Below, in pieces: positions 14,131 through 55,083 of a stretch of 64,000 nt of DNA. How positions within the stretch are numbered: the first letter of the stretch is position 1; the number at the start of each line of letters is the position of its first letter. Source of the stretch: Phycisphaerae bacterium (GTDB taxonomy: Bacteria; Planctomycetota; Phycisphaerae; Tepidisphaerales; Tepidisphaeraceae). The position numbers and the translations under genes are program-made. Location: contig JAUJNJ010000012.1 of assembly GCA_030448225.1 (NCBI GenBank), forward strand, positions 3,166 to 67,165, read 5' to 3'. Below the pieces are notes generated by a model. It saw nothing but the letters and a program-made list of their open reading frames with translations. It ran no database searches and had not been told where the DNA came from.

Positions 14131-14199
14131 CACGTTGGACGTTCGCATTCGACTCCGGAGCGAACGTCCGACGCTCGACGTCCAACGTCCAACGTTCAA
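14131..14199. repeat. Heptad inverted element 1 (unit CGTTGGA/TCCAACG), after hflX
   Basis: The left arm reads about three 7-bp units of the CGTTGGA type and the right arm about five of TCCAACG type, with a central CTCCGGAG palindrome. It begins 7 bases after the hflX stop. Confidence 0.7.
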
Positions 14200-14242
14200 G
14201 TTGAAGAAGTGGTCGCATGCCACGCGTCGTTTTCCTGAAACG

Positions 14243-14264
14243 CCGTGGGAGCTTGCTCCCACGG
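14243..14264. terminator. Hairpin between convergent hflX and dinB-like gene
   Basis: CCGTGGGAGC and GCTCCCACGG form a perfect 10-bp stem with a TT loop. No T-run is attached on either strand, so the terminating role is inferred from position alone. Confidence 0.5.
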
Positions 14265-14360
14265 TTCCCCCGCGTTTCGCAGACCAGTCGGCCGGCGGCG
14301 CCGTGCGCGGCAAGGCGAGCGCCGGCCGAGGGAGGCGGTGCGGCCCGGGCGGAACGCCCC

Positions 14361-14864
14361 TTACCCTTCGACGCCGCCACTCCACGTCCACTCGGCGACG
14401 CTGCTCGGCGGGAGCGGTGTGACGCCGAGGTGGCGGAGCAGGTTCAGGCACTGCGCGCGGTGGTGGGTGCCGTGCGTGGTGACGTGGGCGAGGGCGGCGC
14501 CGCGGGTCATGCGGAGGGTCCTGCCGTCCTTCAAGGTGCGCGTGATGATCTCGTCGACCGGGCGGCGACGGGCCTCGGCGGCGAAGGCCGGGTACGCCTC
14601 GTCGAGCAGGGCGCGCAGCTCGGCGGGGGTTCGGCGCTGGCCGTCGGTCTCGAGGCGCGGGCGCAGTGTTTGGGCGGCGAGCGTGTCGGTAAACGTGCGG
14701 ACCACGCCGACGATGTGCGTGAGCGTGTCGTGGAGCGACCCGGGCCCGATGTCGAATCGCCGTTGAAATTCCTCAGGCGCGAGGGGGCCGCAGGCGTCGA
14801 GGAGTTGGGCGGTGGCCCAGCGGTCGTGGGACAGAATGATCTGGAGGGGGTCGTTTTCCGCCAT
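14361..14864 (-). CDS. DinB-family metal-dependent protein
   Basis: A four-helix-bundle protein of 167 residues. The three metal-binding histidines expected in DinB proteins are present: the SHDRW helix near residue 13, LTHIVG near residue 46 and the GTHHRAQ motif near residue 137. Family members include thiol-dependent hydrolases and transferases; no substrate can be inferred here. The start ATG lies 6 bases downstream of TACCAT, with TTCGGT 17 bp further up (14871-14899), so a leaderless message is likely. Confidence 0.8.
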   Translation of the reverse strand: MAENDPLQIILSHDRWATAQLLDACGPLAPEEFQRRFDIGPGSLHDTLTHIVGVVRTFTDTLAAQTLRPRLETDGQRRTPAELRALLDEAYPAFAAEARRRPVDEIITRTLKDGRTLRMTRGAALAHVTTHGTHHRAQCLNLLRHLGVTPLPPSSVAEWTWSGGVEG

Positions 14865-15332
14865 GGGGGGATGGTACCGGCGGTCGTGGCGTGACCGAAG
14901 CGGTGAGAGTCTGATCGTGAAGTATTCTTGCTCATGTAGAAGCGACAATCGCGCATGATGCCGGGCGCGTGAGCCCTCCCGGTGAGACTGCGCGCTCACC
15001 CCGACAACGTACGAACGCGCGAGGTCGCCGACGGAAAGCGCCACCCTCGCCGCACAGCGCAGGCCCAGCCCTGCGTCCGATGGAGGCGGCGATCCCACAC
15101 GACGGCGCGGCGTCCGCAGCTTTCGAAGAGCCGCGAGTGAGCCCGGGGCTGTGAGCGGGCGGTCAGGCAATTCGGGGGGTTGGCGGTCCGGCGACAACCT
15201 GCCGCCAGGCGGTAGAGACGCGACTGCTCCGCGGCACGCCCTTAGGGCAAGATCGGACGTCGGTCGTTGAGCCTCGGCGTACAATTTGCACAGAGCTCGT
15301 CTCGTAGCAAGAACAGTCGAGCTGGAGCGAAC
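14865..15332. other. Intergenic region, no gene seen
   Basis: No convincing coding frame. It holds the promoter-like bases of the dinB-like gene at its left and a CGTACAATT box at about 15278-15286, which may be the -10 of the next gene. Confidence 0.4.
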
Positions 15333-16235
15333 TTGAGCGGAGCGGGAGCCGATTATCCGTCGATCATTCGCGGCGCGATGCGCGGCGTGGCGCAGCCGAT
15401 CGGCGCCGAGCCGGCGGGGACGCTTCGGGTGGAACGCGGCGAGATCTTCCCGCTCGCGCTGCTCGACGCGGGCCCGGCGGCGCTCGCCGCGGCGGGCGGG
15501 CCGCTCGTGGCGGTGCGAGACGTGGGCGCGGTAGACGTCGAGGACGCCAGCGGGCACCGGCGGGGGCACTACCGCCCGCTGCTGGCGTACTGCTGGCTGC
15601 GGGCGTACGAGGCGGCGAGCGAGCGGTCGGCCTCGTCGGCGGCGGTCGCGGCGGAATGGGCGGCGCCGCTGGCGCGGTGGTGTGCGGCGCTGGGCGCGGA
15701 GGCAGTGCTTCGGCCAGACGCGGGCGGCACGTTTGCCGCGGCCCGCGGCGAGGAGATCGCCGGCGCGGCGTGGGCGGCGGTGGCGCTGTGCGTCGGCGCC
15801 GATCTGCTCGGCGGACCGGTTCGAGACGCGGGCGCGGCCGACGCGTTCCGGCGCCTCATCGCCGCCCAGTCGCCCGAGGGGCCGTTCCTGCGCCCGTCGC
15901 CGTCGGACAACCCCGAGACGCTCTGGTTCCACGAGCTCGTCCTGCTGCACGCGGCGAGCGCCTACGCGGCGCAGTCGGGCGACGCGGCGGTGACGGCCGC
16001 GGTGCGGCGACACGCCGAGTGGGTGCAGCGCGAGACGCAGCCCGACCACGCCACGTCGCAGCCGTGGGGCCTGCCGGCGTTCGTCCTTAACGCGCAGACG
16101 CGGCCGACGGCCGACGCGCTGCTCCACGCGGTGCGGGTGCAGCACCCGGGCGGGCCGGGCGGCGTCTCCTTGATGCTGCTGGCCGACACCCTATATTGCC
16201 TGCGACGCACCGCACGTCCCGCGCCCGGCGGTTAG
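15333..16235 (+). CDS. Hypothetical alpha-helical protein
   Basis: An intact frame rich in alanine-leucine helices, about 300 residues. Repeated helical pairs (for example YRPLLAYCWLRAYEAASE, WFHELVLLHAASAYAA and RRHAEWVQRETQPDHATSQP) recall the alpha/alpha toroid of terpene-cyclase and glycosidase-like proteins, but no catalytic motif is recognised. The start is uncertain: a TTG at 15333 follows a GGAG site; GTG or ATG codons further in are possible. It is followed by the Trm112-like gene. Confidence 0.6.
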   Translation: MSGAGADYPSIIRGAMRGVAQPIGAEPAGTLRVERGEIFPLALLDAGPAALAAAGGPLVAVRDVGAVDVEDASGHRRGHYRPLLAYCWLRAYEAASERSASSAAVAAEWAAPLARWCAALGAEAVLRPDAGGTFAAARGEEIAGAAWAAVALCVGADLLGGPVRDAGAADAFRRLIAAQSPEGPFLRPSPSDNPETLWFHELVLLHAASAYAAQSGDAAVTAAVRRHAEWVQRETQPDHATSQPWGLPAFVLNAQTRPTADALLHAVRVQHPGGPGGVSLMLLADTLYCLRRTARPAPGG

Positions 16236-16387
16236 TTTCGCCGCGGGACGTCCGCCGTGTAGCGGTTTCGCGCGGCGCGAGCCGTCGAACTTCGCTTCCA
16301 CGATGTTCGAGCACGCTCCACCGTTGGGGCCGTGGATCGATGACCCCGACGACGAACATGACGACTCGCGCAGAAAGGCGCCCACCG

Positions 16388-16613
16388 ATGATCGACCCGG
16401 ACCTGCTGGAGATGCTCCGCTGCCCGCTCACCGGCAGCCGCCTGCGCGAGGAGGGCGACTTCCTGATCGCCGAGGAGGGCGGCCTCGCCTACCCGGTGCG
16501 CGACGGCTTCCCCCGTGATGCTGATGGAAGAGGCCCGCCTCCCGGCCGGCGTCGCGTCGCTCGACGCGCTGAAACTGAAGTACAAGCCCCAGGCCGCCAC
16601 GCCCGAGGCGTGA
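16388..16613 (+). CDS. Trm112-family protein (one-base frame break)
   Basis: The short protein starts MIDPDLLEMLRCPLTGSRL and continues to YPVRDGFP, the usual Trm112/YcaR layout. In bacteria only part of the zinc site is kept, as here (one cysteine). A run of five C at about 16509-16513 breaks the frame; with four C the sequence continues FPVMLMEEARLPAG, the conserved end of the family. About 74 residues. These small proteins act as partners of methyltransferases or of lipid A/cell-wall enzymes. Confidence 0.8.
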
Positions 16614-17354
16614 ACACCCGCGCGCCGATTGAGCGCGCGGCCCGCCTGCACGCCCCCGCCCCGCCGACGCGAAGTGATCGCGATGAACAGTCGCGGCGAC
16701 CACCAAGTGCCACAAGCAGCTCCGCGCGCGGCGCGCCGTAATGCTCATCTGGACGAGTGATCGACACGCGGTCGGGACATGCCTCAAGCGCGCGTCACCG
16801 GTTGCAGATGACGACCGCTTGCAACACGGAAACCGGCTATCAAATTCTTGTCAAAAGCAGTCCTTGGTTGAGTGTAGCATGGCCAGCCATGTCATCCCGA
16901 GGGGAGCGGTAGCGACCAGAGGGATCTCGGGCTGGGACGACGCGCACCCTCCCCGCCCGCGATCCCTCGTCCCTGTCGCTCGGGATGACGGCGCCTGTCA
17001 GCCGCGACTGTTACACCTGCCTGAGAAGTGCCCGGAACGCGTCAGGCATCGGCGGAGCTTACGGCCTTCCGTCCGGCGACGGTCGCTTCAATCCTGCCCC
17101 GTAGATGCGACGCCTGCGTCGTTCTCGTGTCGCATCAGAAGGTCATTACGACGATGGAACCGCTGCTCCGTTCCGACGGCGGCGCGGGCGTCGGGACTGC
17201 GCGTCGAACGAAGCGTCACCGACCCTCGGGCGGCACGGGGAAGCGAACTTGTTGACGGAGACGCGTACCGCTTGGCAGCTTCGCCGCGCGTCCGTCGCAC
17301 GTCCGACCGCGCGTCGACGTCTGCCGCCGCGGCCGTCCGACGCGGCGGTCGGCG
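16614..17354. other. 740-bp region without a recognisable gene
   Basis: No frame here shows protein-like composition. The region contains the long inverted repeat at 16891-16989. The segment ends just outside the stop codon of the minus-strand ammonium transporter. Confidence 0.45.
16891..16989. repeat. Long imperfect inverted repeat (CATCCCGAG type)
   Basis: The arm 16891-16927 starts GTCATCCCGAG and ends GAGGGATC; the arm 16961-16989 is nearly its reverse complement, ending CTCGGGATGAC. The 33-bp loop is GC-rich. Repeats of this general kind are dispersed in intergenic DNA of several phyla. Confidence 0.6.
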
Positions 17355-18595
17355 TCACGCCTCGCGGAGGTGGTAGCTCTTGATCATCGTCTGCTGGAAG
17401 TCGGGGTAGGCGCCGATGTCGTGCTCGGCGAGGTCGAGGCCGTCGTACTCGTCGGCCTCCGTCGAGCGGACGGGCGTGAGGCGCTTGAGCAGCGCGAACA
17501 GCGCGGCGCCGCGCCGCCGGCGAACGCCGCGATGACGAGGATCGCCAGCAGGTGCGCCCCGAGGCGGGCGAGGTGCTGGCCGAACGTGCCGGGGACGAAC
17601 AGGGCGGCGGCGACGAGGCCCCACGCGCGCCGACGCCGTGGATCGCGACGCCGCCGGCGGGGTCGTCGACGCGGCCGAACAGGTCGAGCGATGCCGGCGG
17701 CCGGGACGAGCAGGCCCCGCACCGCGCCGGTGACGACCGCCGCGAGCGACCCGACCGCCGGCCCCCCGCCGTGCTGGCGACGAGGCCGCCGAGGAACCCG
17801 CCCAGCGCCAGGCCGACGTCGGCCTTGCCGTACCGCACCTGCCCCACCGCCAGCGCCGTCGCCCCGCCCGCCGCCGCCGCCAGCAGCACGTTGGCGGCGG
17901 CGGGCGCCAGCCTGCGTCGAGCGCGTCGTCGGCGGCCGGCGAAGCGGACGATAGCGATCGTAGCAGCGCACAACCAACGGCGTAGGGGACGAAGCCGACG
18001 AGCATCGTGACGGCCCCGCAGACGGCGAACGGCACGCTGTGCCCGGGGATCATGTTGGCCGAGCCGTCGCGGTTGTACTTCCCCGCCCGCGGCCCCACCG
18101 CCGCCGCCGCCGCCAGCGCGCGAACGCGCCGGCGGCCAGATGGACGGCGCCGGCGCGCCGGCGAAGTCGACGACGCCGAGCCGCTCGAGCCACCCGCCCC
18201 ACGTCCACCGCGGCGGTCGGGATGACGAGGCCCGCCAGCACCGCCCACGCGGCGCAGAGCGGGAAGAACCGCGACCGCTCGGCGAGCGACCCGCCGACGA
18301 CGGCGGTGCCGATCAGGACGACCGTTGCGTAGAACAGCGCCGTCGGCGGCGTCCCGCCCCACCCCAGCAGCAGGCGTAGCGCGATGCCGAAGAACCCGTT
18401 GGACGACTGGCCGAGGATCGCCGCGCCGATCGCCCAGAACGCCAGCGCCGACACGCACAGGTCACAGAGGCTCCGCACCGACGCGCGGCCGCGTTCTTCG
18501 AGCGGGCGAGGCCGACGTAGTACAGCGTCTGCCCCAGCCGCACGATCAGCACGGGCGGCCAGCAGCACGATCGGGATCGACTCCATTTGCGGCAC
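17355..18595 (-). CDS. amt: Ammonium transporter, Amt family (frame-broken)
   Basis: Amt proteins are trimeric ammonia/ammonium channels of the inner membrane. Recognisable blocks occur in order in three frames: FWAIGAAILGQSSNGFFG, a membrane helix run ending in GGSLAERSRFFP, an FAGA-xxHLAAG segment, GPRAGKY ... IPGHSVPFAVCGAVTMLVG, and the C-terminal DGLDLAEHDIGAYPDF tail that in Amt proteins couples the subunits. Length end to end is about 413 codons, the family norm. At least four indels are needed. Whether it is a real gene with sequencing errors or a decayed copy cannot be told, but the density of breaks matches its essential neighbours. Confidence 0.75.
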
Positions 18596-18745
18596 TCCTT
18601 CGGGCGGCGAGTTCTACCAGAAACCCGCGCCCCGCGACACCGCGGCGGGCGCCCGGCGGGCATGTCGTTGAACTGGGATGTGAGCGCGTCGCGGCGTCAC
18701 CTTCGGGGTGGCCGCCGACGCGTCGCCCGCGGTACGCTGTCGGGC

Positions 18746-20321: not shown

Positions 20322-20326
20322 GACCC

Positions 20327-20839
20327 GTGGGCTACGACCAACACATCCGCGCCTCCGCCGCCGACAAGATCGTCGCCCGCTGCGCCGTGGTCACGCTGAG
20401 CGACACGCGCACCGAGGAGACGGACAAGAGCGGCCGGCGGATTCGCGAACTCCTGGCCGAGGCCGGCCACGCCGTCGCCGCGTATCGAATCATCGCCGAC
20501 GACGCCGACGCGCTCCGCGCGGTGCTCGACACCCTGCTCGGCGACGCCGCCGTGGACGTGATCCTCACCAACGGCGGCACCGGGATCAGCCGGCGCGACC
20601 GGACGATCGCCGTCGTCGAGGAACACCTCGACGTCAGGCTCCCCGGCTTCGGGGAGCTGTTCCGGATGTTGAGCTGGGAGCAGATCGGCAGCGGCGCGAT
20701 GATGAGCCGCGCGGTCGGCGGCGTCGGGCGCGGGAAGCCGGTCTTCGCGATGCCCGGGTCGACCCCGGCGGTGGAACTGGCGATGCAGCGGCTCGTCCTG
20801 CCCGAGCTGTCCCACCTGCTTCACGAACTGCGCAAGTAG
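20327..20839 (+). CDS. moaB: Molybdopterin adenylyltransferase/MoaB-MogA family protein
   Basis: The 171-residue protein shows the MoCF-biosynthesis fold: CAVVTLSDTRTEETDKSG, TNGGTGISRRD (the GGTG substrate loop) and FRMLSWEQIGSGAMMSRA. Family members bind molybdopterin and adenylylate it (MogA) or are its paralogue MoaB; which of the two is meant cannot be told, and no other molybdenum gene is near. The GTG start gives the usual length and sits 5 bases after the lipoprotein stop, so the pair may be cotranscribed. Confidence 0.85.
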   Translation: MGYDQHIRASAADKIVARCAVVTLSDTRTEETDKSGRRIRELLAEAGHAVAAYRIIADDADALRAVLDTLLGDAAVDVILTNGGTGISRRDRTIAVVEEHLDVRLPGFGELFRMLSWEQIGSGAMMSRAVGGVGRGKPVFAMPGSTPAVELAMQRLVLPELSHLLHELRK

Positions 20840-20991
20840 CGGCGGATGTACGGCGACCGGCGCGCGGCGCCGGCGGCACGCGCGGCGTCGGCGTCGGGTC
20901 TACGGTCGTTCTGCCCGCACCGGACCACATCGTTGCCGCGCCGCGCGACCGTGCCCCCCGACCGCGGACGCGGACGCGGTCGCAGCCGGTG

Positions 20992-26671: not shown

Positions 26672-26766
26672 CGATTTTGGATTTTGGATAGCGGATTTTG
26701 GATCGGAAGCGGAGGGCAGCGCCTTCGCGCTCACCGATCCAAAATCGCAAATCCAAAATTCAAAAT
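26672..26766. repeat. Heptad inverted element 2 (unit TTTTGGA), rpoA-rplQ spacer
   Basis: The left arm (26672-26704) is GATTTTG-type heptads, the right arm (26736-26766) their complement (ATCCAAA-type). The loop is GC-rich. It fills the spacer between rpoA (ends 26775) and the rplQ start (26660). Confidence 0.85.
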
Positions 26767-27884: not shown

Positions 27885-27980
27885 GATGTCGTCTCCTTAT
27901 GCGCCGCCCGCGGATCGCGAAAGGTTCCCGCCCCAACCGTTAGGGGCCATCTGTTCTTTCGCCTCGCCGTGGGGCGCGAT

Positions 27981-28084
27981 CGATTTTGGATTTTGGATTG
28001 CGGATTTTGGATTGAGGGACCTCGAATCAGACGCAAGCATTGTTAGCCCGCAGTCCAAAATCCAAGATCCGCAATCCAAAATCG
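27981..28084. repeat. Heptad inverted element 3 (unit TTTTGGA), rpsK-rpoA spacer
   Basis: Left arm 27981-28013, right arm 28052-28084, with about four heptads each and a 38-base loop. Same unit as element 2. Confidence 0.85.
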
Positions 28085-28499: not shown

Positions 28500-28553
28500 G
28501 ATCAGTGTCCTCTTCTGTGCGGATCGACCGGATCTACGCCGTCCCCGCTGTGA

Positions 28554-28644
28554 TAGTTGCTAGTTGCTAGTTGCGAGTTGCTAGCAGGAGCCGGCTGCCG
28601 CTGCTGTTTGTTCGCTAGCAACTAGCAACTGACAACTAGCAACT
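28554..28644. repeat. Heptad inverted element 4 (unit GTTGCTA), rpsM-rpsK spacer
   Basis: Left arm 28554-28584, right arm 28614-28644, with a loop beginning GAGCCGGCTGCCGCTGCTG. Fills the spacer between the rpsM stop (28651) and rpsK. Confidence 0.9.
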
Positions 28645-29050: not shown

Positions 29051-29128
29051 AGTTGCTAGTTGCTGGTGTCTAGTTGCTAGTGAAGCCGGCTGCGTTGACT
29101 AGCAACCAGCAACTAACAACTAGCAACT
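29051..29128. repeat. Heptad inverted element 5 (unit GTTGCTA), rpmJ-rpsM spacer
   Basis: Left arm 29051-29082, right arm 29098-29128, loop rich in G+C (GAAGCCGGCTGCG). Fills the spacer. Confidence 0.85.
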
Positions 29129-29245: not shown

Positions 29246-29357
29246 GATCGTAATTCCAGTGGCAGTAGTAGCTTGAGTCCGACCCCGGGGCCGGGAATCG
29301 AGCTTTATAGCAGAAAAAGACTTTCTTCTCAAGGCCTTACGACAACGGCACGTCTGT

Positions 29358-30150
29358 CTACGTCAGCACCGGCGCCCGCCCGTCGGTCAGGATGTCGACG
29401 CCGGCTTCCGTCACGGCGACCGTGTGCTCGAAGTGGGCGGCGGGGAGTCGGTCCTCGGTCACGACCGTCCACTTGTCGCCGAGCAGTTCGACGTCCCGCC
29501 GACCCGCGACGACCATCGGCTCGACCGCCAGCGTCATGCCGGGGCGGAGCTTGAAGTCGCCCCGCAGTTGTTCCTGCGTGACGAAGTTCGGCACCTTCGG
29601 GTCCTCGTGCATCGTGCGGCCGATGCCGTGGCCGACGAACTCGCGCACGACGCTGAAGCCGTTGCGGCTCGACGTGGTACTGCATCAGCCGGGCGATGTC
29701 GGACCACTTGCGGCCCGGCTTCATGTGCTGGATCGCCAGCGTCAGCGTCTCGCGCGTCACGTCGAGGAGGCGGCTGGCCTGCGGCGAGATCGGGCCGATC
29801 GGGACGGTGGTGGCCGTGTCGGCACAGTACCCTTCGAGCGACAGCGCGACGTCGAGCGTTACCAGGTCGCCTTCCTTCAGCACCCGCCGGCCGGGAATGC
29901 CGTGGACGACCTCCTCGTTGACGCTGATGCAGGTGTGTCCGGGAAGCCCTCCTTCCTTGTAGGTCGGGTAGTTCTTCGACAGCGCCCGCGCGCCGACCTT
30001 GGCCATCTCCGACCGCGCGAGTTCGTCGAGTTCGGCGGTCGAGACGCCGGCTGCGGCGGCGACGCGCATCTTGGCGAGGATCTCGCAGCCGACCTGCCCC
30101 GCCCGGCGCATCTTCTCAATCTCGGTGCGGGATTTGAGGACGATCGGCAT
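29358..30150 (-). CDS. map: Methionine aminopeptidase (one frame break)
   Basis: Removes the initiator methionine from nascent proteins. Signature blocks: [41 protein letters not shown] (first metal aspartates), [29 protein letters not shown] and [23 protein letters not shown] end, with the ligands D, D, H, E, E visible. The frame breaks once near 29665; removing one base joins the halves into about 264 residues. It lies between secY and rpmJ as in many bacteria, but adk and infA are absent. Confidence 0.93.
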
Positions 30151-30160
30151 GGAAGGAGCA

Positions 30161-30240
30161 GTTGCTAGTGGGTCAGTCGCCGGTCGCTAGTGACGCTCGG
30201 GCGGGTGCTGCTATCAACGAGGAACTAGCAACGAGCGACG
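30161..30240. repeat. Heptad inverted element 6 (degenerate GTTGCTA type), secY-map spacer
   Basis: Only some heptads match (GTTGCTA, GGTCGCTA; right arm AACTAGCAACGAGCGACG). It is the most decayed member and fills the spacer. Confidence 0.65.
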
Positions 30241-30243
30241 TCC

Positions 30244-31656
<1,413 letters not shown>

Positions 31657-31784
31657 GCTCAGCCCCGCACGATGTTAGGCACGCCGTTGGAAACGGTGAA
31701 AAGCCGCCGATGGCACCGGGGGTCCTGCTCGTCGGGACCGCGCCGATGACATCCGCGGCTTCTACGGGTAGGACACGCGATGAC

Positions 31785-32443
31785 TCAGCCCTCGGTCGGC
31801 GCGGCAAATCGAAGCGCGTCCGGTTCGGGCGTGTTGCGGCCGGGGCCGGGGCCGGGGCCGGGGCGGCGGGTGCCGCGGCGGGGGGCGGCGTGGCATCGGC
31901 AGGGCGTCCGCCGCCCTTGGTCTTCACCGCGGCGTCGCGCTTCACGAACCGCTTCTTGGGCTTGGGGAACTCGAACGCCTCGCCCTTGAGGTTCTGGGCG
32001 GTGCCGCCGGCGGCGGTGATCTTCTCGTGGGCGGCTCTTGCTGAACCACCCGGCGACCACCGTCAGCTTTTTGCCGCTGAAGTCGCCGTTGCCCAGGATT
32101 TTGACCGGCTGGCGGTCGTCCGGCACGAGGCCGGCCTCGATCAGGGCGGCGGCGTCGACCGTCGTGCCCGCGTCGAAGCGGGCGAGTTCCGACCACGTTC
32201 ACAACGTGGAACCGGCGGCTCGAAGTCGTGGTTGCTGAAGCCGCGCAGCGGGGGACGCGGCGGAAGATCGGCGTCTGGCCGCCCTCGTGACCCGCCTTCA
32301 CGTACTTGCGCCGCCGCGGGCCGATGCGCTTGCTGCCGCCGCGGCCGGACGTCTTGCCCCGCCCGCTCGACTCGCCGCGGCCCTTGCGCTGCGAGCAGCT
32401 TGTTCCGGGGGGGCGGGCCCGTGATCTCGTGCGTCATGCTCAT
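31785..32443 (-). CDS. rplO: 50S ribosomal protein L15 (several frame breaks)
   Basis: The start MTHEITG and the basic region KGRGESSGRGKTSGRGGSKR are the L15 signature; KAGHEGGQTPIFRRVPR and RGFSNHDFEP follow in other frames, and the C-terminal half reads LARFDAGTTVDAAALIEAGL. Frames change near 32400, 32235, 32180 and 32030. The C-terminus runs into an Ala/Pro tail whose end (PEPDALRFAAPTEG then stop at 31785) is the best guess. About 220 residues. rpmD, normally just upstream, is absent. Confidence 0.88.
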
Positions 32444-32453
32444 GGAATACCAA

Positions 32454-32537
32454 AGTTGCTAGTTGCTAGTTACCAGTTGCTAGTCAATGTCGGCCGCCGT
32501 GCTCTTACTAGCAACTAGCAACTGACCACTAGCAACT
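32454..32537. repeat. Heptad inverted element 7 (unit GTTGCTA), rpsE-rplO spacer
   Basis: Left arm 32454-32484, right arm 32507-32537. The loop reads AATGTCGGCCGCCGTGCTCTT, nearly the same as that of element 14. It occupies the place where rpmD would be expected. Confidence 0.9.
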
Positions 32538-32556
32538 ATCCTCAGGCCGAGACGAG

Positions 32557-33354
32557 TCACCGCCCGCGCCGGCCCTTCTCGAGCTGGACGCCGCGGCTCT
32601 GCTCGACCATCTCGCGGCTCTTGAGCTGCTTGAGGGCGGCGATCGTCGCGCCTTCACGAGGTTCTTGGGGCTCGTGGAGCCGTAGGCCTTGGTGAGGATG
32701 TCGGTCACGCCCGCGAGTTCGACGCAGGGGCGGACGCTCTTGCCGGCCGTGACGCCCGTGCCCGGGCGGGCCGGGGCGAGGACGACCGTGGGCGCGCCGC
32801 TCGTGCCCTTGACCTGGTGCGGGATCGTGCTGCCCTTGAGGTTGACCTTGAACATGGTCTTGCGGGCGTCCTTCGTGGCCTTCTCGACGGCCATGGGCAC
32901 TTCGTTGGCCTTGCCGTAGCCGATGCCGATGTTGCCCTTGCGGTCGCCGGCGACGACGAGCGCGCCCGAAGCTGAACGTGCGGCCGCCCTTGACAACCTT
33001 CGAGCAGCGGTAGATGCGGACGACGGAGGACTCGATGCCCGAGCCGTCGTCGTCGCCGCGCGCCCGCGGTTGCCGCCGGGCCGCCGCCGCCGCCGCCGGT
33101 TCCCGCCGCGACCGACCGCCGCCGCCGTACCCGCCGCGGCCGCCACCACCGCCACCACCACCGCCGAAGCCGCCGCCGCCACCGCCGAACTGGGGGGCCG
33201 GTCGGGTCGGGGCCGCTGCCGGGGTTGCCGGTGCTGCCGCCTGGTCGGGCGCGGCGGCCGTCTCGGGGGCGGCGGTCGCGTCGGGGGCCGGCGTGGCCGG
33301 GGCGGCGTCGCCGGGGTTCTGCTGTTCGGTCGAATTGGAAGTTTCTTCAGCCAT
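32557..33354 (-). CDS. rpsE: 30S ribosomal protein S5 with long low-complexity N-terminus (frame-broken)
   Basis: The core (KVVKGGRTFSFGALVVAGDRKG, IGYGKANEVPMAVEKA, STIPHQVKGTSGAPTVVLAPA, KAYGSTSPKNLVKATIAALKQL) is S5. Ahead of it stand about 105 residues: Ala/Pro/Thr-rich, then a long run of glycines with a few aromatic and basic residues. The frame breaks near 32970 and 32657, restored by single bases. Ordinary S5 is about 165 residues; this one is about 265. Confidence 0.92.
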   Translation of the reverse strand: MAEETSNSTEQQNPGDAAPATPAPDATAAPETAAAPDQAAAPATPAAAPTRPAPQFGGGGGGFGGGGGGGGGRGGYGGGGRSRREPAAAAAARRQPRARGDDDGSGIESSVVRIYRCSKVVKGGRTFSFGRARRRRRPQGQHRHRLRQGQRSAHGRREGHEGRPQDHVQGQPQGQHDPAPGQGHERRAHGRPRPGPPGHGRHGRQERPPLRRTRGRDRHPHQGLRLHEPQEPREGATIAALKQLKSREMVEQSRGVQLEKGRRGR

Positions 33355-33830: not shown

Positions 33831-33890
33831 GATCTCTTCTCTCAACCTCGGGGGCGTCGGCTGTGTTCGAAGCCCCAGTTGATCGTGTCG

Positions 33891-33965
33891 TATTGCGTAG
33901 TGCGTAGTGCGTAATAGGAAAACACGTTCGTGACGTTCTTCTCTGCTTACGCACTACGCACTACG
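33891..33965. repeat. Heptad inverted element 8 (unit TGCGTAG), rplF-rplR spacer
   Basis: Left arm ATTGCGTAGTGCGTAGTGCG at 33892 and beyond, right arm TTACGCACTACGCACTACG. About three heptads per arm. Different heptamer from its neighbours, same period and layout. Confidence 0.85.
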
Positions 33966-33976
33966 ACTTTCAATTC

Positions 33977-35009: not shown

Positions 35010-35096
35010 AGTCAGTAGTCAGTAGACAGTAGGCGGAAGTCAGCAGTCGTGGCAGCCGAGCGGTCATCTGGTGACGGCCGACCACCGACTACTCTC
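35010..35096. repeat. Heptad inverted element 9 (unit AGTCAGT), rpsN-rpsH spacer
   Basis: Left arm 35010-35048 with five to six AGTCAGT-type heptads; the right arm (about 35069-35096) is more degenerate (GGTGACG, GCCGACC, ACCGACT). Confidence 0.7.
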
Positions 35097-35099
35097 CTC

Positions 35100-35369
35100 T
35101 TACCAGCTCGCCTTCTTCAGGCCCGGGATCTTCCCCGCGTTTCCGAGTTCCCGCAGCATGATGCGCGAGATCTTGAACTTGCGCAGGACGGCGCGGCTGC
35201 GGCCGGTGAGCTCGCACCGGTTGTGCGAGCGGGTCGGGCTCGAGTCGCGCGGGAGCTTCGCCAGCGCGGCGTAGTTCTTTTCCTTCTTGAGCTGCCGCCG
35301 GATGTCCGCGTAGCGGTCGACCAGGGCCTCGCGACGCTTCTGTTTTGCTACCCAGGCTTTGGTTGCCAT
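35100..35369 (-). CDS. rpsN: 30S ribosomal protein S14, zinc-free form
   Basis: 89 residues with [31 protein letters not shown]. The CxxC pairs of the zinc form are absent and the length is that of the C-minus type. The frame is intact. Confidence 0.95.
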
Positions 35370-35380: not shown

Positions 35381-35470
35381 AGTGGTCAGTGGTCAGTGGC
35401 TACTGGTCAGTCCCGTCGGCGAGGCATTGCGGCCATTTCACTGACCACTGGCCACCCGACACTGACCACT
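35381..35470. repeat. Heptad inverted element 10 (unit GGTCAGT), rplE-rpsN spacer
   Basis: Left arm 35381-35411, right arm 35439-35470 (ACTGACC-type heptads). The spacing between the rplE stop (35475) and the rpsN start is filled by it. Confidence 0.85.
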
Positions 35471-36620: not shown

Positions 36621-36629
36621 GGTAAAACC

Positions 36630-36717
36630 AGTTGCTAGTTGCTAGTTATGAGTTGCTAGCCCGTCACGGTCGCCGCTGCTCTTGCTGGCAGCTAGCAACT
36701 GGCAACTAGCAACTAGT
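36630..36717. repeat. Heptad inverted element 11 (unit GTTGCTA), rplN-rplX spacer
   Basis: Left arm 36630-36660 (GTTGCTA, GTTGCTA, GTTATGA, GTTGCTA), right arm 36691-36717. Begins 3 bases after the rplN stop and ends 10 bases before the rplX ATG. The third heptad differs between the two arms without compensation. Confidence 0.92.
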
Positions 36718-37106: not shown

Positions 37107-37116
37107 GGGAGTAACC

Positions 37117-37204
37117 AGTTGCTAGTTGCCAGGTATCAGTTGCTCGTGTGAACCGGCCGCCCCGCTGCTTTCTCGCGAGCAACCAGCAACCCGACGCAGC
37201 AACT
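37117..37204. repeat. Heptad inverted element 12 (unit GTTGCTA), rpsQ-rplN spacer
   Basis: Left arm 37117-37146 (four heptads), right arm 37175-37204 (one heptad shortened by a base). The loop has a CCGGCCGCCCCGCTGCTTTC core. Confidence 0.85.
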
Positions 37205-38358: not shown

Positions 38359-38446
38359 AGTTGCTAGTTGTCAGTTGCAAGTTGCTAGTTGAATACGAGC
38401 GGCGTCCGTCAGTATGGTCACTAGCAACTAGCCACTAGCAACCAGA
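38359..38446. repeat. Heptad inverted element 13 (unit GTTGCTA), rpsC-rplP spacer
   Basis: Left arm 38359-38391, right arm 38419-38446. It ends 13 bases before the rplP ATG. The minus-strand bases between element and ATG hold no canonical ribosome-binding site. Confidence 0.9.
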
Positions 38447-38458
38447 AACCCCTCTCGC

Positions 38459-39167: not shown

Positions 39168-39251
39168 AGTTGCTAGTGGCTAGTTACGAGTTGCTAGTGA
39201 AAACCGGCCGCCGTGCTCTTACTAGCAACTAGCAACTGGCAACCAGCAACT
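39168..39251. repeat. Heptad inverted element 14 (unit GTTGCTA), rplV-rpsC spacer
   Basis: Left arm 39168-39199, right arm 39220-39251; loop CCGGCCGCCGTGCTCTT is shared almost exactly with element 7. Begins 5 bases after the rplV stop. Confidence 0.92.
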
Positions 39252-39940: not shown

Positions 39941-40024
39941 AGTTGCTTGTTGCTAGTTGCTAGTCGCTAGTCGGTGTCAGCAGCCTTGCTCTTCCTAGCA
40001 ACTGGCAACTGACAACTAGCAACT
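39941..40024. repeat. Heptad inverted element 15 (unit GTTGCTA), rplB-rpsS spacer
   Basis: Left arm 39941-39972, right arm 39994-40024. Begins 6 bases after the rplB stop and ends 10 bases before the rpsS start. Confidence 0.92.
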
Positions 40025-40903: not shown

Positions 40904-40989
40904 CAGTTGCTAGTTGTCGGTTGCTAATTGCTAGTAGGGCCGGTCGCGTTGCTCTCTCACTGGCAACTAGCAACCGACAACTAGCAACT
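40904..40989. repeat. Heptad inverted element 16 (unit GTTGCTA), rplW-rplB spacer
   Basis: Left arm 40904-40935, right arm 40959-40989. Ends 7 bases before the rplB ATG. Confidence 0.92.
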
Positions 40990-40993
40990 GCCC

Positions 40994-49721: not shown

Positions 49722-49749
49722 TTGACAACCCGCACCTCCTCCTTAGGAT
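49722..49749 (+). promoter_or_regulatory. Promoter of the structured RNA and tRNA-Gln unit
   Basis: TTGACA (49722-49727), a 16-bp spacer and TAGGAT (49744-49749). The predicted start (about 49755) is exactly the first base of the closing stem of the RNA below. Confidence 0.8.
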
Positions 49750-49754
49750 GACGC

Positions 49755-49925: not shown

Positions 49926-49944
49926 CCACCCTTCGCCTTCTCAC

Positions 49945-50015
49945 TACCCCGTAGTGTAACGGTAGCACAGCAGATTTTGGCTCTGCTCGTCTTGGTTCGA
50001 ATCCAAGCGGGGTAG
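49945..50015 (+). tRNA. tRNA-Gln (anticodon TTG)
   Basis: Acceptor TACCCCG (49945-49951) pairs with CGGGGTA (50008-50014); D arm GTG/CAC; anticodon stem GCAGA/TCTGC with loop TTTTGGC, anticodon TTG; T arm CTTGG-TTCGAAT-CCAAG. The U1-A72 pair is usual for tRNA-Gln. The CCA end is not encoded. Confidence 0.93.
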
Positions 50016-50030
50016 CTCCGCCACGCTGGC

Positions 50031-50152
50031 GGAAGCACGAAACCCGAAGCACGAAATACGAAAGAGTCGCCCGAGCGAGGTGCCCTTTTTCGCGTTTCCT
50101 CTTCGACTTTTATGCTTCTTCCGATTTCGTACTTTGGATTTCGGATTTTCTT
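50031..50152. repeat. Heptad inverted element 17 (units GAAGCAC/GAAATAC), tRNA-glmU spacer
   Basis: Left arm 50031-50067 (GAAGCAC, GAAACCC, GAAGCAC, GAAATAC, GAAAGAG), right arm about 50121-50152 (ATTTCGT, ACTTTGG, ATTTCGG, ATTTTCT). The loop is the longest of the family. Confidence 0.75.
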
Positions 50153-50154
50153 CC

Positions 50155-51136: not shown

Positions 51137-51143
51137 TTGCGGT

Positions 51144-52136
51144 ATGTCCAGCCTCGACTCGGACAAGCTGAAGGTGTTCACCGGCCGCGCCCACCCCGCA
51201 CTGGCGCAACGCATCTGCACGTACCTGCAGATCCCGCTCGGCCGGGGCCGCACCGAGTGGTTCCCCGACGGGGAACTCATCGTGAAGGTCGACGAGGACG
51301 TCCGCGGCCGCGACTGCTACATCATCCAGCCGACGAGCCACCCGGTGAACGCCCACCTGATGGAGCTGTTCATCTGGATCGACTGCCTCCGCCGCGCCAG
51401 CGCCCGGCGGATCACGGCCGTCATCCCGTACTTCGGCTACGCCCGCCAGGATCGCAAGGACGAGGGGCGCACGCCGATCACGGCGAAGCTGGTCGCCAAC
51501 CTCATCGAGACGGCCGGCGCCGACCGCGTCGTGTCGGTCGACCTGCACGCGGCGCAGGTGCAGGGGTTCTTCGACATCCCGGTGGATCACCTCAACGCCG
51601 GCCCGGTGCTCATCAAGTGGTACAAGAGCTTGAAGCTCAGCAACCGGGTGTTCGTCTCGCCCGACGTCGGGAACGTGAAGCGGGCGCAGGTCTACGCCAA
51701 CATGATCGGCGGCGACATCTGCATCATCGACAAGCGGCGCAAGAGCGGCACGAAGACCGAGGCGAAGCACATCATCGGCGACGTCGAGGGCAAGAACGTG
51801 CTGATGGTCGACGACATGATCACGACCGCCGGCACGATGACCGAGGCCGTGCGGATCGTCCGCGAGAACGGCGCGAAGGACGTGTACATCAGCGCGACCC
51901 ACGCCGTCTTCGCCCCGCCGGCGATGGAGCGGCTGGCCGACTGCCCGTTCACGAAGATCGCCGTGACCGACACGATCCCGATCGGCGACCGGTGCGACGC
52001 GATCAAGGACCGGCTCGTCGTCCTGCCGGTGCACGAACTGCTCGGCGAGGCGATCCACCGCATCCACCACAACGAGTCGGTCAGCGCGCTGTTCCAGAAG
52101 GACCGCGAGCCGACCCCCCGCTCCACGACGGAGTAG
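51144..52136 (+). CDS. prs: Ribose-phosphate pyrophosphokinase
   Basis: Makes phosphoribosyl pyrophosphate from ribose-5-phosphate and ATP. 330 residues: PDGELIVKVDEDVRGRDCYIIQP, VIPYFGYARQDRKDEGRTPI (flexible loop), SVDLHAAQVQGFFDIPVDHL and the PRPP-binding VLMVDDMITTAGTM. Intact. glmU-prs-rplY-pth is the order of many bacteria. Confidence 0.96.
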   Translation: MSSLDSDKLKVFTGRAHPALAQRICTYLQIPLGRGRTEWFPDGELIVKVDEDVRGRDCYIIQPTSHPVNAHLMELFIWIDCLRRASARRITAVIPYFGYARQDRKDEGRTPITAKLVANLIETAGADRVVSVDLHAAQVQGFFDIPVDHLNAGPVLIKWYKSLKLSNRVFVSPDVGNVKRAQVYANMIGGDICIIDKRRKSGTKTEAKHIIGDVEGKNVLMVDDMITTAGTMTEAVRIVRENGAKDVYISATHAVFAPPAMERLADCPFTKIAVTDTIPIGDRCDAIKDRLVVLPVHELLGEAIHRIHHNESVSALFQKDREPTPRSTTE

Positions 52137-52144
52137 GAATGGAG

Positions 52145-52226
52145 AGTTGCTGGTTGCTAGTTGCTAGTTGCTAGTGCCAGACACGGAGTTTTCCAACTAG
52201 CAACCAGCAACCGAACACTAGCAACT
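52145..52226. repeat. Heptad inverted element 18 (unit GTTGCTA), prs-rplY spacer
   Basis: Left arm 52145-52175, right arm 52195-52226. GAGG lies between it and the rplY ATG. Confidence 0.9.
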
Positions 52227-52241
52227 GCTACCGAGGTTCAC

Positions 52242-52886
52242 ATGGCAGCATCCATCCAAGTAACGGTTAAGCCCCGCGGCGAGCTCGGCTCCCGCGCCAA
52301 CAAGCGCCTCCGCGACGCCGGCTTCATCCCCGGCGTCATCTACGGCCACAAGGAGGCGGTCGTCCCCGTCACGCTCCCGAAGAAGGAGATGAGCGGGCAC
52401 CTCAACCACGGCACGCACGTGTTCGACCTCGCGCTCGACGGCAAGAGCGAGAAGGTGCTCGTGAAGGAAGTGCAGTTCGACCACCTCGGCATCGAGATCA
52501 TCCACGTCGACTTCGCCCGCGTCAGCCTCGACGAGCGGGTCGAGGTCACCGTGCCGCTCGAGCTCAAGGGCACCCCCAAGGGCGAGGACGACGGCGGCGT
52601 GCTCCAGCAGTTGGTCGCCGAGCTCGAGGTCGAGTGCGTCGTGACCGACATCCCCGACGTGATCCGCCACAACGTCGGCGAGATGAAGGTCGACGACGTC
52701 CTGCTGATCAAGGACCTCAAGCTCCCCGCCGGCGTCCGCGCCCTGCAGGACGAGGACCTGATGGTCGCGCAGGTGACGGTGATCGCCGACGAGGAGGCCA
52801 CCCCCGCCGCCGACGCCGACGCCGCCGAGCCCGAGGTCATCGGCAAGAAGCCCGAGGACGATGCCGCCGAGGGCGACGCGAAGTAA
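52242..52886 (+). CDS. rplY: 50S ribosomal protein L25 / general stress protein Ctc
   Basis: 214 residues: VTVKPRGELGSRANKRLRDAGFIPGVIYGHK, VLVKEVQFDHLGIEIIHVDFARV and DLKLPAGVRALQDED. This is the long CTC form with a beta domain, ending in an acidic tail. It binds 5S rRNA. Intact. Confidence 0.93.
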   Translation: MAASIQVTVKPRGELGSRANKRLRDAGFIPGVIYGHKEAVVPVTLPKKEMSGHLNHGTHVFDLALDGKSEKVLVKEVQFDHLGIEIIHVDFARVSLDERVEVTVPLELKGTPKGEDDGGVLQQLVAELEVECVVTDIPDVIRHNVGEMKVDDVLLIKDLKLPAGVRALQDEDLMVAQVTVIADEEATPAADADAAEPEVIGKKPEDDAAEGDAK

Positions 52887-52892
52887 CGGAGC

Positions 52893-52983
52893 AGTTGCTA
52901 GTGGTAAGTTGCTAGTTGCTAGTGAAGATCAAGAGCGATCCTTCTTGGCACTAGCAACTGACAACTAGCAACTAGCAACTAAC
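52893..52983. repeat. Heptad inverted element 19 (unit GTTGCTA), rplY-pth spacer
   Basis: Left arm 52893-52923, right arm about 52950-52983. It runs right up to the pth ATG (52986), leaving no ribosome-binding site. Confidence 0.9.
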
Positions 52984-52985
52984 GC

Positions 52986-53603
52986 ATGAAGCTCATCGTC
53001 GGCTTAGGCAACCCCGGTCGCGAGTACGTCGGCACCCGGCACAACGTCGGCTTCGACGTGGTCGACGAGGTCGCCGAGCGGCTCAGCTGGATCGCCTCGG
53101 CCGCCGACTTCGACCGCCTGGCGCGGACGAAGTTCTCCGGCCTCGCCCTCGACGGCACGGTGACGTTCGCGGGCGGCGGCGGCAGCGAGAAGGTGCTGCT
53201 GCTGAAGCCGACGACCTACATGAACCTGTCCGGCCGCAGCGTGCAGGAGGCGATGGCCTTCCACAAGCTGACGCCGGCGGACCTGATGGTCGTGCTCGAC
53301 GAGATGGCGCTGCCGTGCGGCAAGATCCGGCTCCGGTCGGGCGGGTCGAGCGGCGGCCACAACGGGCTGAAGGACATCGAGCGGGCGCTGGGCACGAGCC
53401 AGTACCCGCGCCTCCGGGTCGGCGTCGACGCGCCGCCTGGCCGCGTCCCCGGCCGCGACTACGTCCTCGGGCGATTCACCGAGGCGCAGCTGAATCAGGT
53501 CGTCCCGGCCGTGCAACGCGCGACGAGCGCAGTGATCGCCTGGGCGGAAAAAGGCATGAACGCGGCGATGAACGTCTTCAACGCCGACAAAGAGAAGAAG
53601 TGA
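52986..53603 (+). CDS. pth: Peptidyl-tRNA hydrolase
   Basis: 205 residues: MKLIVGLGNPGREYVGTRHNVGFDVVDEVAE with the catalytic Asn and His, LLLKPTTYMNLSGRSV, and SGGSSGGHNGLKDIERALG. Intact. Frees tRNA from dropped-off peptidyl-tRNA. Confidence 0.96.
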   Translation: MKLIVGLGNPGREYVGTRHNVGFDVVDEVAERLSWIASAADFDRLARTKFSGLALDGTVTFAGGGGSEKVLLLKPTTYMNLSGRSVQEAMAFHKLTPADLMVVLDEMALPCGKIRLRSGGSSGGHNGLKDIERALGTSQYPRLRVGVDAPPGRVPGRDYVLGRFTEAQLNQVVPAVQRATSAVIAWAEKGMNAAMNVFNADKEKK

Positions 53604-53691
53604 TCAGGAGTCAGGAGTCATGAGTCAGAGATGGGCCGAGCAGTAAGAAACGCTTCTTACTGACTCCTGATCCCTGACCCCTGACCCTGAA
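53603..53691. repeat. Heptad inverted element 20 (unit GTCAGGA), pth-rpsF spacer
   Basis: Left arm 53603-53629 (GTCAGGA-type), right arm 53658-53691 (TCCTGAC-type). Confidence 0.85.
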
Positions 53692-53743
53692 CTAGCGGTC
53701 GGACCACCGACCAGAACCCAAGCTAGAAAGCAGCAGCAGACCT

Positions 53744-54292
53744 ATGGCAAACGCGACAGCAACCCCGAACCAGTACGAAGCGATGTTCCTCCTCGGCCCC
53801 GCGGCGACGCAGGAGAACAACGGCGGCCTCGACCTCGTCCGCGGGATGATCGAGCGCCACGGCGCGACGATCCTCGTGCTCAAGAAGTGGGACGAGCGCA
53901 AGCTCGCCTACGAGCTCAACAAGCAGAAGCGCGGCACCTACATCATCGCGTACTTCACCGCCCCCGGCTCGGCCATCGCCCCGCTCGAGCGCGACGTGAA
54001 GCTGAGCGAGGACGTGCTCCGCGTGATGGTCACCAAGGCCGACCACCTCAACCAGCAGGAGATGGAGGCGGTCGAGCCGCAGCCGATCCAGCGCGTCGAG
54101 GAACGCCCGAGCTGGGAGACCGAGCGCTTCGGCGGCGGCGGTGGCGGCGGCGGGCGTCGTGACGACCGCGGCCCGCGCGACGACCGTGGCCCGCGTGACG
54201 ACCGTGGCCCCCGCGGCGACGACCGCGGCCCCCGCCCGGCCCGTCGCGACGAGGGTGGCGCCCCGGCCGAGGCCGGCGCCGCCAAGGACTGA
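53744..54292 (+). CDS. rpsF: 30S ribosomal protein S6 with RGG-like tail
   Basis: Core (YEAMFLLGPAATQ, ILVLKKWDERKLAYELNKQKRGTYIIAYF, VLRVMVTKADHL) is S6. About 60 extra residues at the C-terminus are Gly-rich and then carry three or four copies of an RDDRGP repeat. Start by context (ATG 53744, AGCAGACCT nearby). Intact. Confidence 0.93.
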   Translation: MANATATPNQYEAMFLLGPAATQENNGGLDLVRGMIERHGATILVLKKWDERKLAYELNKQKRGTYIIAYFTAPGSAIAPLERDVKLSEDVLRVMVTKADHLNQQEMEAVEPQPIQRVEERPSWETERFGGGGGGGGRRDDRGPRDDRGPRDDRGPRGDDRGPRPARRDEGGAPAEAGAAKD

Positions 54293-54302
54293 CGCCCCGG
54301 AC

Positions 54303-54392
54303 AGAATGACGAATGAAGAATGCAGAACGGAGTCCGCATTCACCGAACGTGTCCCCTATTCTGCATTCATCGTTCTGACCTCTGCATTCGGA
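54303..54392. repeat. Heptad inverted element 21 (unit AGAATGA/GAATGCA), rpsF-ssb spacer
   Basis: Left arm 54303-54339 (AGAATGA, CGAATGA, AGAATGC, AGAACGG), right arm 54358-54392 (ATTCTGC, ATTCATC, GTTCTGA, CCTCTGC, ATTCGGA). Confidence 0.8.
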
Positions 54393-54399
54393 GTACCTC

Positions 54400-54999
54400 A
54401 TGGCCAGCTTCAACCAAGTCATCCTGATGGGGAACCTCACGCGGGACCCCCAGCTCAAGTACCTCCCGAGCCAGACCGCCGTCGCCGAGTTCGGCATCGC
54501 GTGCAACCGCAAGTTCCGCACGCAGCAGGGCGAGGACCGCGAGGAGGTGACTTTCATCGACTGCACGGCGTTCGCCAAGCAGGCGGAACTCATCAACCAG
54601 TACTTCACCAAGGGCAAGCCGATCTTCATCGAGGGCCGCCTGAAGTACGACTCGTGGGATGACAAGCAGGGCGGCGGCAAGCGCAGCAAGCTGACCGTCG
54701 TCGTCAACAACTTCCAGTTCGTCGGCGGCCGCGATGGCGGCGGCGGTGGTGGAGGCGGCGGCGGTGGCGGCGGGGTCGACGCCGACTCGCACGGCGACTA
54801 CGACAGCGCCCCCCCGCCGCAGCGGAACTACAACCGTGGCGGCGGCGGTGGTGGTGGTGGTGGTGGCGGTGGCGGCAACGCCCCCGCCAACCGCGGGCCG
54901 GCGCCCCGTCCCGCCCCGCAGCGACCGCAGCCCGCGCCGCAGCAGGAAGCGCCGTTCAGCGACGAACAGCAGTTCCGCGACGACGATATCCCGTTCTAA
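54400..54999 (+). CDS. ssb: Single-stranded DNA-binding protein
   Basis: 199 residues: MASFNQVILMGNLTRDPQLKYLPSQTAVAEFGIA then FIDCTAFAKQAELINQYFTKGKPIFIEGRL, an OB-fold. A glycine-rich linker of about 70 residues with a run of glycines follows, then a Pro-rich stretch and the acidic C-terminal tip DDDIPF that recruits partner proteins. Intact. rpsR, usual between ssb and rplI, is absent. Confidence 0.95.
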   Translation: MASFNQVILMGNLTRDPQLKYLPSQTAVAEFGIACNRKFRTQQGEDREEVTFIDCTAFAKQAELINQYFTKGKPIFIEGRLKYDSWDDKQGGGKRSKLTVVVNNFQFVGGRDGGGGGGGGGGGGGVDADSHGDYDSAPPPQRNYNRGGGGGGGGGGGGGNAPANRGPAPRPAPQRPQPAPQQEAPFSDEQQFRDDDIPF

Positions 55000-55004
55000 A
55001 AGCA

Positions 55005-55083
55005 ATTGCTGGTTGCTAGTTGCTAGTTGCTAGCAGCTCCCGGCATGTTTTTCCTAGCAACTAGCAACTCACAACTAGCAACT
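55005..55083. repeat. Heptad inverted element 22 (unit GTTGCTA), ssb-rplI spacer
   Basis: Left arm 55005-55036, right arm 55053-55083. GAGG follows before the rplI start. Confidence 0.9.

Follow-up and report, generated by a model that had tools for sequence, protein, structure and literature searches.

The heptameric short tandemly repeated repetitive (STRR) sequences of cyanobacteria are direct repeats. Here we describe heptad elements of a different layout in a 64,000-nucleotide (nt) stretch of a Phycisphaerae bacterium genome (GenBank assembly GCA_030448225.1, contig JAUJNJ010000012.1, positions 3,166 to 67,165; referred to below as the window). Each is a pair of convergent period-7 arrays; the pairs are dispersed and lie in the gaps between co-transcribed genes, and in ribosomal loci their arms are usually four heptads long. 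A detected partner array is nearly always inverted and the orientation of the unit is near-constant, while the unit itself differs between elements and, at a given spacer, between strains. We favor, tentatively and with a probability of about 0.48, a DNA-level process in which paired convergent arrays in operon spacers would be rewritten by slippage and template switching.

The available excerpts on STRR sequences describe heptad units, several of them per genome, as found here, and do not mention inverted pairing. The original prediction, made from the letters of the window alone, had named STRR sequences as the nearest described thing; that comparison was incomplete, as convergent heptad pairs have been reported in Xanthomonas (PMC4692102). 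The available parts of that report give 70 (Xcc) and 75 (Xac) convergent pairs of GGGAATC heptads with stem-loop potential (PMC4692102). The Xanthomonas arrays are mostly of four units, dispersed and mostly intergenic, and they lie nearer the preceding gene and mostly between co-oriented genes (PMC4692102, in the same parts). All of this holds for the present elements, which are likewise tandem 7-nt units in two close, convergent, intergenic arrays. The Xanthomonas heptads, as far as those parts go, belong to one G-rich unit family that was studied as quadruplexes (PMC4692102), whereas here a single genome has many units, the unit varies at orthologous spacers, partners are as a rule inverted, and the density is high in ribosomal operons. 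The present units do not follow the G-rich GGGANTN quadruplex pattern, and GGG occurs in only a few of them (CAGGGTT in locus L003 and GGGTCAG in the window element at 53601).

In the accessible text on marine Beggiatoaceae, TAACTGA repeats resemble the present elements in being intergenic heptads near genes with a scattered phylogenetic distribution; unlike them, they are direct repeats of one unit, with a single indirect repeat noted, and heptads related to TAACTGA rarely occur as direct repeats (PMC4679880). Citing Mrazek 2007, the same text states that in most genomes no class of longer repeats is as abundant as heptads and that the polymerase may have a contact length of 7 nt (PMC4679880). 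There is no settled reason for the number seven in bacterial heptads; the many elements and units per genome, near-constant polarity, and turnover between strains in the group studied here make the source of the period testable. REP/REPIN/RAYT repeats are short dispersed extragenic palindromes, reported in Planctomycetes too (PMC3733652, available part), and the present elements are dispersed as well. The REPs of that part carry GTAG or CGTC tags, and tandem heptad arms are not mentioned there (PMC3733652), whereas unit parses of the present arms showed a common period with neither a common sequence nor a tetranucleotide tag such as GTAG. Among the matches listed in searches of the open-licence literature (bacteria, Planctomycetes, Phycisphaerae, and ribosomal operons), none described inverted heptads whose unit changes.

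Inverted heptad elements in the window

Elements were sought with a unit-blind detector (two 28-nt arms, period-7 self-match of at least 12/21, at least 19/28 paired, and a loop of at most 80 nt). The strict detector found 19 inverted period-7 elements in the window; at the same kind of setting, periods of 4 to 6 and 8 to 13 gave 0 to 5 elements each, and the harmonic period 14 gave 16. Locally composed Markov shuffles of the window yielded a mean of 0.15 and a maximum of 2 elements in 200 shuffles, and a stricter setting found 18 elements in the window versus none in 200 shuffles. A chance origin is ruled out by the shuffles together with the comparison with other periods, and an assembly artefact is unlikely, since the same elements are present in a single-contig genome of 7.19 Mb (G012) and in other assemblies. 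One match from a looser scan (20714 to 20877), G+C rich with a 108-nt loop, was dropped.

The original prediction had counted 22 elements, 13 of them of the GTTGCTA class. Both totals are reached when two degenerate GTTGCTA spacers (30151 to 30243 and 37107 to 37202) are added, together with one weak candidate (14126 to 14201) in the case of the 22, and the changing units found are those it had named. Its description of arms as tandem heptads also stands, with their size corrected from 3 to 5 units to mostly four; the interval between the 28-nt arms measured 16 to 50 nt in the listed elements, compared with the 20- to 50-bp loops first given.

The strict set has no member in the first 26 kb, 13 members at 26 to 41 kb, one at 50 kb, and five at 52 to 55 kb. 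These positions correspond to the S10-spc-alpha ribosomal superoperon (minus strand), a site following a tRNA gene, and a second operon of translation genes, prs-L25-pth-S6-ssb (plus strand). Core genes of the window were placed by Pfam or tblastn, as our own gene caller is crude, above all on the window. The elements are listed below; unless another description is given, each is an inverted heptad element identified by detector scans and unit parse (fold z, z score of folding).

14126 to 14201, strand not assigned: weak candidate, unit TCCAACG, directly after a gene end; 20/28 pairs, left-arm period score 11/21, outside the strict set; may be a common hairpin of the kind found where genes end
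26674 to 26766, minus: unit ATTTTGG, RpoA-L17 spacer
27981 to 28083, minus: unit GATTTTG, S11-RpoA spacer
28555 to 28644, minus: unit AGTTGCT, S13-S11 spacer
29051 to 29128, minus: unit AGTTGCT, L36-S13 spacer
30151 to 30243, minus: degenerate GTTGCTA element, SecY-Map spacer (from sequence; period score 15/21; fold z −1.5)
32454 to 32537, minus: unit AGTTGCT, downstream of S5, read as the S5-L15 spacer (L15 from sequence and gene order)
33888 to 33973, minus: unit GCGTAGT, L6-L18 spacer (strict detector, unit parse)
35021 to 35100, minus: degenerate element, AGTCAGT-like unit, S14-S8 spacer (detector scans; fold z −1.6)
35381 to 35470, minus: unit AGTGGTC, L5-S14 spacer
36628 to 36716, minus: unit CTAGTTG, L14-L24 spacer
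37107 to 37202, minus: degenerate GTTGCTA element, S17-L14 spacer (from sequence; period score 14/21; fold z −1.0)
38360 to 38449, minus: unit GTTGCTA, S3-L16 spacer (orthologous spacer compared in relatives)
39169 to 39250, minus: unit GTTGCTA, L22-S3 spacer (compared in relatives)
39942 to 40023, minus: unit GTTGCTA, L2-S19 spacer (compared in relatives)
40904 to 40990, minus: unit CAGTTGC, L23-L2 spacer (arms mirrored, including variant units; fold z −8.5)
50033 to 50148, plus: unit CGAAGCA/CGAAATA, about 16 nt after tRNA-Gln (detector scans)
52146 to 52226, plus: unit GTTGCTA, prs-L25 spacer
52893 to 52980, plus: unit AGTTGCT, L25-pth spacer
53601 to 53687, plus: unit GAGTCAG/GGGTCAG, pth-S6 spacer
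54302 to 54384, plus: unit CAGAATG, S6-ssb spacer (strict detector, unit parse)
55006 to 55081, plus: unit TTGCTAG, spacer after ssb

Seventeen window elements were parsed in transcript sense. Their 5' arms begin 0 to 23 nt (median, 6) past the end of the upstream gene, and in 13 of them the 3' arm ends 5 to 25 nt ahead of the next start. The SecY, Map, S5, and L15 region (29329 to 33354) appears frameshifted, probably by sequencing errors.

Period and layout in other genomes

By ribosomal protein L5, the loci nearest to the window are from Phycisphaerales assemblies, with 72 to 82% identity in the best matches. Elements in relatives were counted after removal of N runs, which can mimic elements (two cases in L004), and some stretches were picked for matches (G003 and G005) or for the ribosomal operon, so that the counts are not unbiased densities. 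Period 7 was foremost in every element-rich genome sampled, whatever the unit, with 0 to 7 elements at other periods, harmonic 14 aside. Period-7 elements numbered 24 in 85 kb of G003 (a mixed bin, with 0 to 2 at other periods), 15 in 227 kb of G005, 21 in 421 kb of G007, 22 in 400 kb of G012, 8 in 75 kb of G016, and 11 in 273 kb of G011. Outside the group, there were 7 in 396 kb of G028, the Actinomycetes-labelled assembly of locus L031, with no elements at any other period between 4 and 13, and 9 in 400 kb of G027, labelled Taibaiella soli, with 4 at period 8. Four of the nine nearest ribosomal loci, L001 to L009, contained period-7 elements (L001, L003, L005, and L007) and five did not; in the remaining 69 of the 71 loci L010 to L080 (1.14 Mb, some from planctomycetes), one element was found at period 7 and 0 to 2 at other periods. 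The trait is scattered, being strong in some genomes and absent from most loci examined. In G007 (L081 to L100), inverted tandem arrays of period 8 (CACGAAGA-like; 7 cases) and period 10 (ACACAGATGA-like; 6 cases) lie beside the heptads.

Among 35 arrays in the window, 29 had an inverted partner, none had a direct partner, and 6 had no detected partner; the direct-only arrangement of the STRR type was not found. For 322 heptad arrays from six genomes, the partner within 200 nt was inverted in 181 cases and direct in 8, and none was detected in 133. Merged arms account for some of these partnerless arrays, and G005 (28/54) and G027 (61/88) have many lone arrays. Orientation was kept in 196 of 207 same-unit element pairs (10 of the 11 exceptions are in G007), and G outnumbered C in the arm leading to the loop in 91 of 108 elements, the reverse holding in 12.

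Elements are concentrated in ribosomal loci. G007 has 10 elements in its 20.6-kb ribosomal locus and 11 in 400 kb consisting mostly of contig starts (∼18-fold; Poisson P = 6e-10), and G012 has 4 in 16.5 kb versus 13 in 383.5 kb (∼7-fold; Poisson P = 0.003). In G011, 7 of 11 elements lie within an 8.7-kb piece around S3. The G012 elements are found between co-directional genes in 15 of 17 cases, between divergent genes in 2, and inside genes in none; the excess is modest against a background of 220 co-directional pairs in 307. Outside the ribosomal locus, their neighbors are often likely partners (MotA/MotB-like genes, DUF1501/DUF1800, and ABC transporter parts), and in one region FabG- and FabF-like genes flank a short frame lying between two elements.

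Units at orthologous spacers

The G003 bin carries two versions of the ribosomal operon, L003 and L116, and seems to mix two strains. Their S3 genes are 92.9% identical, and the unit differs in all five spacers in which both have an element. At the best rotation, the difference is 3 of 7 bases at S19-L22, L22-S3, and S3-L16, 2 at L16-L29, and 1 at L14-L24; random unit pairs mostly differ by 3 to 4 of 7 bases. No direct similarity was detected between the loops (z < 2 in 5/5), with one inverted z of 2.7, and the last 19 nt of S3-L16 are identical. At L16-L29 of L116, the outermost unit is GTGCTGA, which is the unit of L003, followed by the locus's own GGACTGA units.

The sister loci L001 and L002 (93.5%) have a 123-nt full element and a 52-nt one-armed remnant, respectively, at S3-L16. 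Most of their element-free spacers align well. S17-L14, by contrast, measures 104 nt in one and 64 nt in the other, and the CTAGAAA heptad element of S13-S11 has as its counterpart an inverted array with a period of about 8 to 9 nt, as judged by eye. When six spacers around S3 were compared across 21 relative loci (20 genomes) and the window, 26 of 129 were occupied, with 7 to 33 nt left outside the arms to stop and start, and the nine elements at S3-L16 fell into seven unit classes. Between the closest pairs (∼93% in S3), occupied spacers could not be aligned, and no alignable empty site was seen there. One of 26 orthologous loop comparisons, that of the window with L003 at L22-S3, looks inverted (inverted z, 6.2; direct z, 2.2). 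Template switching homogenizes the arms and inverts the spacers of short inverted repeats, according to the available part of PMC8604942, and the inverted loop at L22-S3 is the outcome described there.

The original prediction held that period and inverted layout are constant and the unit variable, and this was seen both within genomes and between relatives. It had also named what would speak against it: related genomes in which each unit is a separate, ordinary transposon-derived repeat without a common period, or a genome-wide absence of period 7; neither was found.

Sister contigs for further strain pairs in G003 were sought with one 20-kb piece, for which none was found; this piece gave 136 matches in all to dispersed repeats in G003. 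Other dispersed repeats of about 30 to 360 nt, with many copies in G003, are found at L119:11308-11620 and L119:18123-18483.

Tests of RNA hairpin function

The elements could be RNA hairpins selected between cistrons for mRNA processing, stability, or dosage, in which case shape alone would count and the units would drift. The raised density in ribosomal operons agrees with this, as do the co-directional setting and the likely partner genes around the G012 elements. Spacer classes (clear, degenerate, or no element) were assigned by hand for 22 window spacers with a fold z, and the 11 with a clear element ranged from −3.4 to −8.5. The 3 spacers with a degenerate element ranged from −1.0 to −1.6. 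The 8 heptad-free spacers (+0.6 to −1.4), however, showed no excess folding, which rules out for the window a universal intercistronic hairpin with incidental heptads.

If pairing in the transcript were selected, G-U mismatches should exceed A-C mismatches. On the transcript strand of 81 elements, 109 G-U and 99 A-C mismatches were counted (P = 0.53); the equal counts, with no wobble signature, give no sign of selection. The true unit order paired 23.61 of 28 positions versus 23.31 when units were permuted (103 elements, P = 0.08), indicating that variants do not compensate in register, and single mirrored elements exist (window 40904 to 40990 and L22-S3 of L003). Also at odds with a selected hairpin are the modest co-directional excess in G012 and the many relatives in the order that lack an element at the same spacers. 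Within their power, the two tests gave no sign of upkeep as RNA hairpins, and a weak hairpin function is possible; as the explanation of the elements, we consider selected RNA hairpins doubtful. Between the two options of the original prediction, a generating mechanism or a shape-based RNA function, the evidence leans to the former, at the DNA level.

The elements do not resemble intrinsic terminators, as the longest T run in the 20 nt past the 3' arm was 1 to 2 (4 in one case) in 19 elements, and the only Rfam match in the window at gathering score was one tRNA. G007 has other strong hairpins, at L4-L23 (z = −9.0) and L5-S14 (z = −5.7).

Discussion

The DNA-level reading is favored because there is no wobble signature, no compensation in register, and no excess folding in the heptad-free spacers of the window operon and because elements are absent from the same spacers in many relatives. 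A pair might originate through fold-back synthesis or when a whole hairpin is copied, and its arms would then be rewritten at the unit level by replication slippage within one arm and, occasionally, by strand or template switching from arm to arm or from one dispersed copy to another. A new unit would thereby replace the old one while period and layout persist. Build-up in operon spacers may come from low cost, in that the insert would fold on itself and the stop and next start would stay close. The elements might mildly affect mRNA stability or gene dosage, with no sign of an effect keeping the arms paired. If rewriting is a mutational process, selection is not needed for architecture to be conserved where sequence is not, which calls for caution with RNA assignments based on shape only.

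Several points weigh against this reading. No rewriting event was caught between near-identical strains, and the rewriting step is one that we infer. At three of the five spacers with an element in both L116 and L003, the units are as far apart as random units, and replacement of the whole element would explain these differences equally. The likeness of same-unit loops in the window (below) points to whole-element copying. Arm-to-arm switching predicts mirrored variants, and these are not the rule in 103 elements; of the template switching with slippage first suggested, plain arm-to-arm switching was thus not demonstrated. Slippage alone accounts for neither the inverted layout nor the number 7. 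G007 has inverted arrays of period 8 and period 10 as well. As to low cost, 4 of the 17 parsed window elements end 42 to 97 nt before the next start, and any insertion into a short spacer would come to lie near stop and start. The density in the ribosomal operons of G007 and G012 is unexplained by a purely neutral model.

It is unlikely, in our estimate, that the elements represent REPIN/MITE-like hairpins mobilized in trans by an enzyme such as a REP-associated (Y1/RAYT) transposase. The random-sized strain differences nevertheless led us to give this idea slightly more weight and rewriting less. Dispersed copies share a common unit, AGTTGCTAGTTGCTAGT with up to two mismatches occurring at 192 places in G003 (reversed control, 0) and at 179 in G005 (control, 74), and the near-constant orientation and the presence/absence difference between sisters L001 and L002 are as expected of mobile copies. 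Loops are partly common in the window, with z > 2 in 33% of 48 same-unit pairs versus 4% of 105 different-unit pairs; the corresponding values are 11% of 35 versus 5% of 118 in G003 and 9% of 11 versus 3% of 142 in G012. In G005, on the other hand, same-unit loops are not more alike than others (4% of 24 versus 4% of 54), and in G007 likeness was seen in 0 of 6 same-unit and 0 of 22 different-unit pairs. Some elements thus seem to have been copied whole and others to have only the unit in common. Y1 transposases were found in 10 of 10 genomes searched, but the genes were not flanked by repeats in the manner of RAYT genes: of 20 Y1 loci, fetched with flanks of up to about 1.5 kb on either side, none had an element and one had a lone array, in a set to which further Y1 matches could be added. 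G002, a genome without a full element in its ribosomal locus, has Y1 genes too, and the arms have no fixed sequence across elements.

A sequence-blind process that writes 7 nt at a time may instead lay or overwrite convergent heptad arrays in operon spacers with the current unit of the genome, such that period, polarity, and layout would be inherited and the word would not; this we hold to be improbable.

Very unlikely is templated end addition, in which the two 3' ends of a break would be extended with heptads by an enzyme and then joined, producing convergent same-unit arrays that resemble two telomere ends facing each other. The constant polarity (the G excess in the loop-leading arm), the unit common to elements with unrelated loops in G005, and the apparently older unit outside newer ones at L16-L29 of L116 fit such a process, but no enzyme or template was found. 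Ku, present in 8 of 26 genomes, was not found in the element-rich G012 and G005, and a reverse transcriptase above the cut-off is present in 8 of the 11 genomes that have an element near S3 and in 4 of the 9 that lack one, showing no clear link.

Three further candidates were rejected. Loss of SbcCD does not separate genomes with an element near S3 (SbcD in 1/11) from those without (0/9). A fixed variant-unit code (5' arm unit 2 and 3' arm unit 3) gave P values of 0.014 and 0.13 in the window and 0.48 and 0.57 in relatives and is at most a trait of the window. Stop codons in all frames, a reason for the number 7 that follows reasoning on paper, fail as an explanation in that several units have no stop at all. 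Of the 26 genomes of the order, many of which are probably incomplete assemblies, 2 have an SbcD that passes the cut-off, versus 8 of 14 controls, and the palindrome nuclease may be rare in the order; SbcC passes in 0 of 26, with only 1 of 14 controls passing and near full-length matches below the cut-off in two genomes.

Other conserved spacer sequences

Three spacers of the minus-strand superoperon also contain conserved sequences. In the S11-RpoA spacer, a conserved, structured-looking rpoA leader (27885 to 27980, minus strand; also in L001, L002, L004, L007, and L008) reads ACAGATGG...GG...GGGAA or GGCAAAC...GCAAT; it has no Rfam match and is a possible regulatory RNA. The L6-L18 spacer contains a conserved, stem-loop-like ATCAACTGGGGCYTCGAA...CCGACGCCCC...GTTGA before L18 (33846 to 33890, minus strand; also in L001, L002, and L008). 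In the S13-S11 spacer, GCGGGGACGGCRTA...CCGG.CGATCCGC is conserved before S11 (28503 to 28550, minus strand; also in L002).

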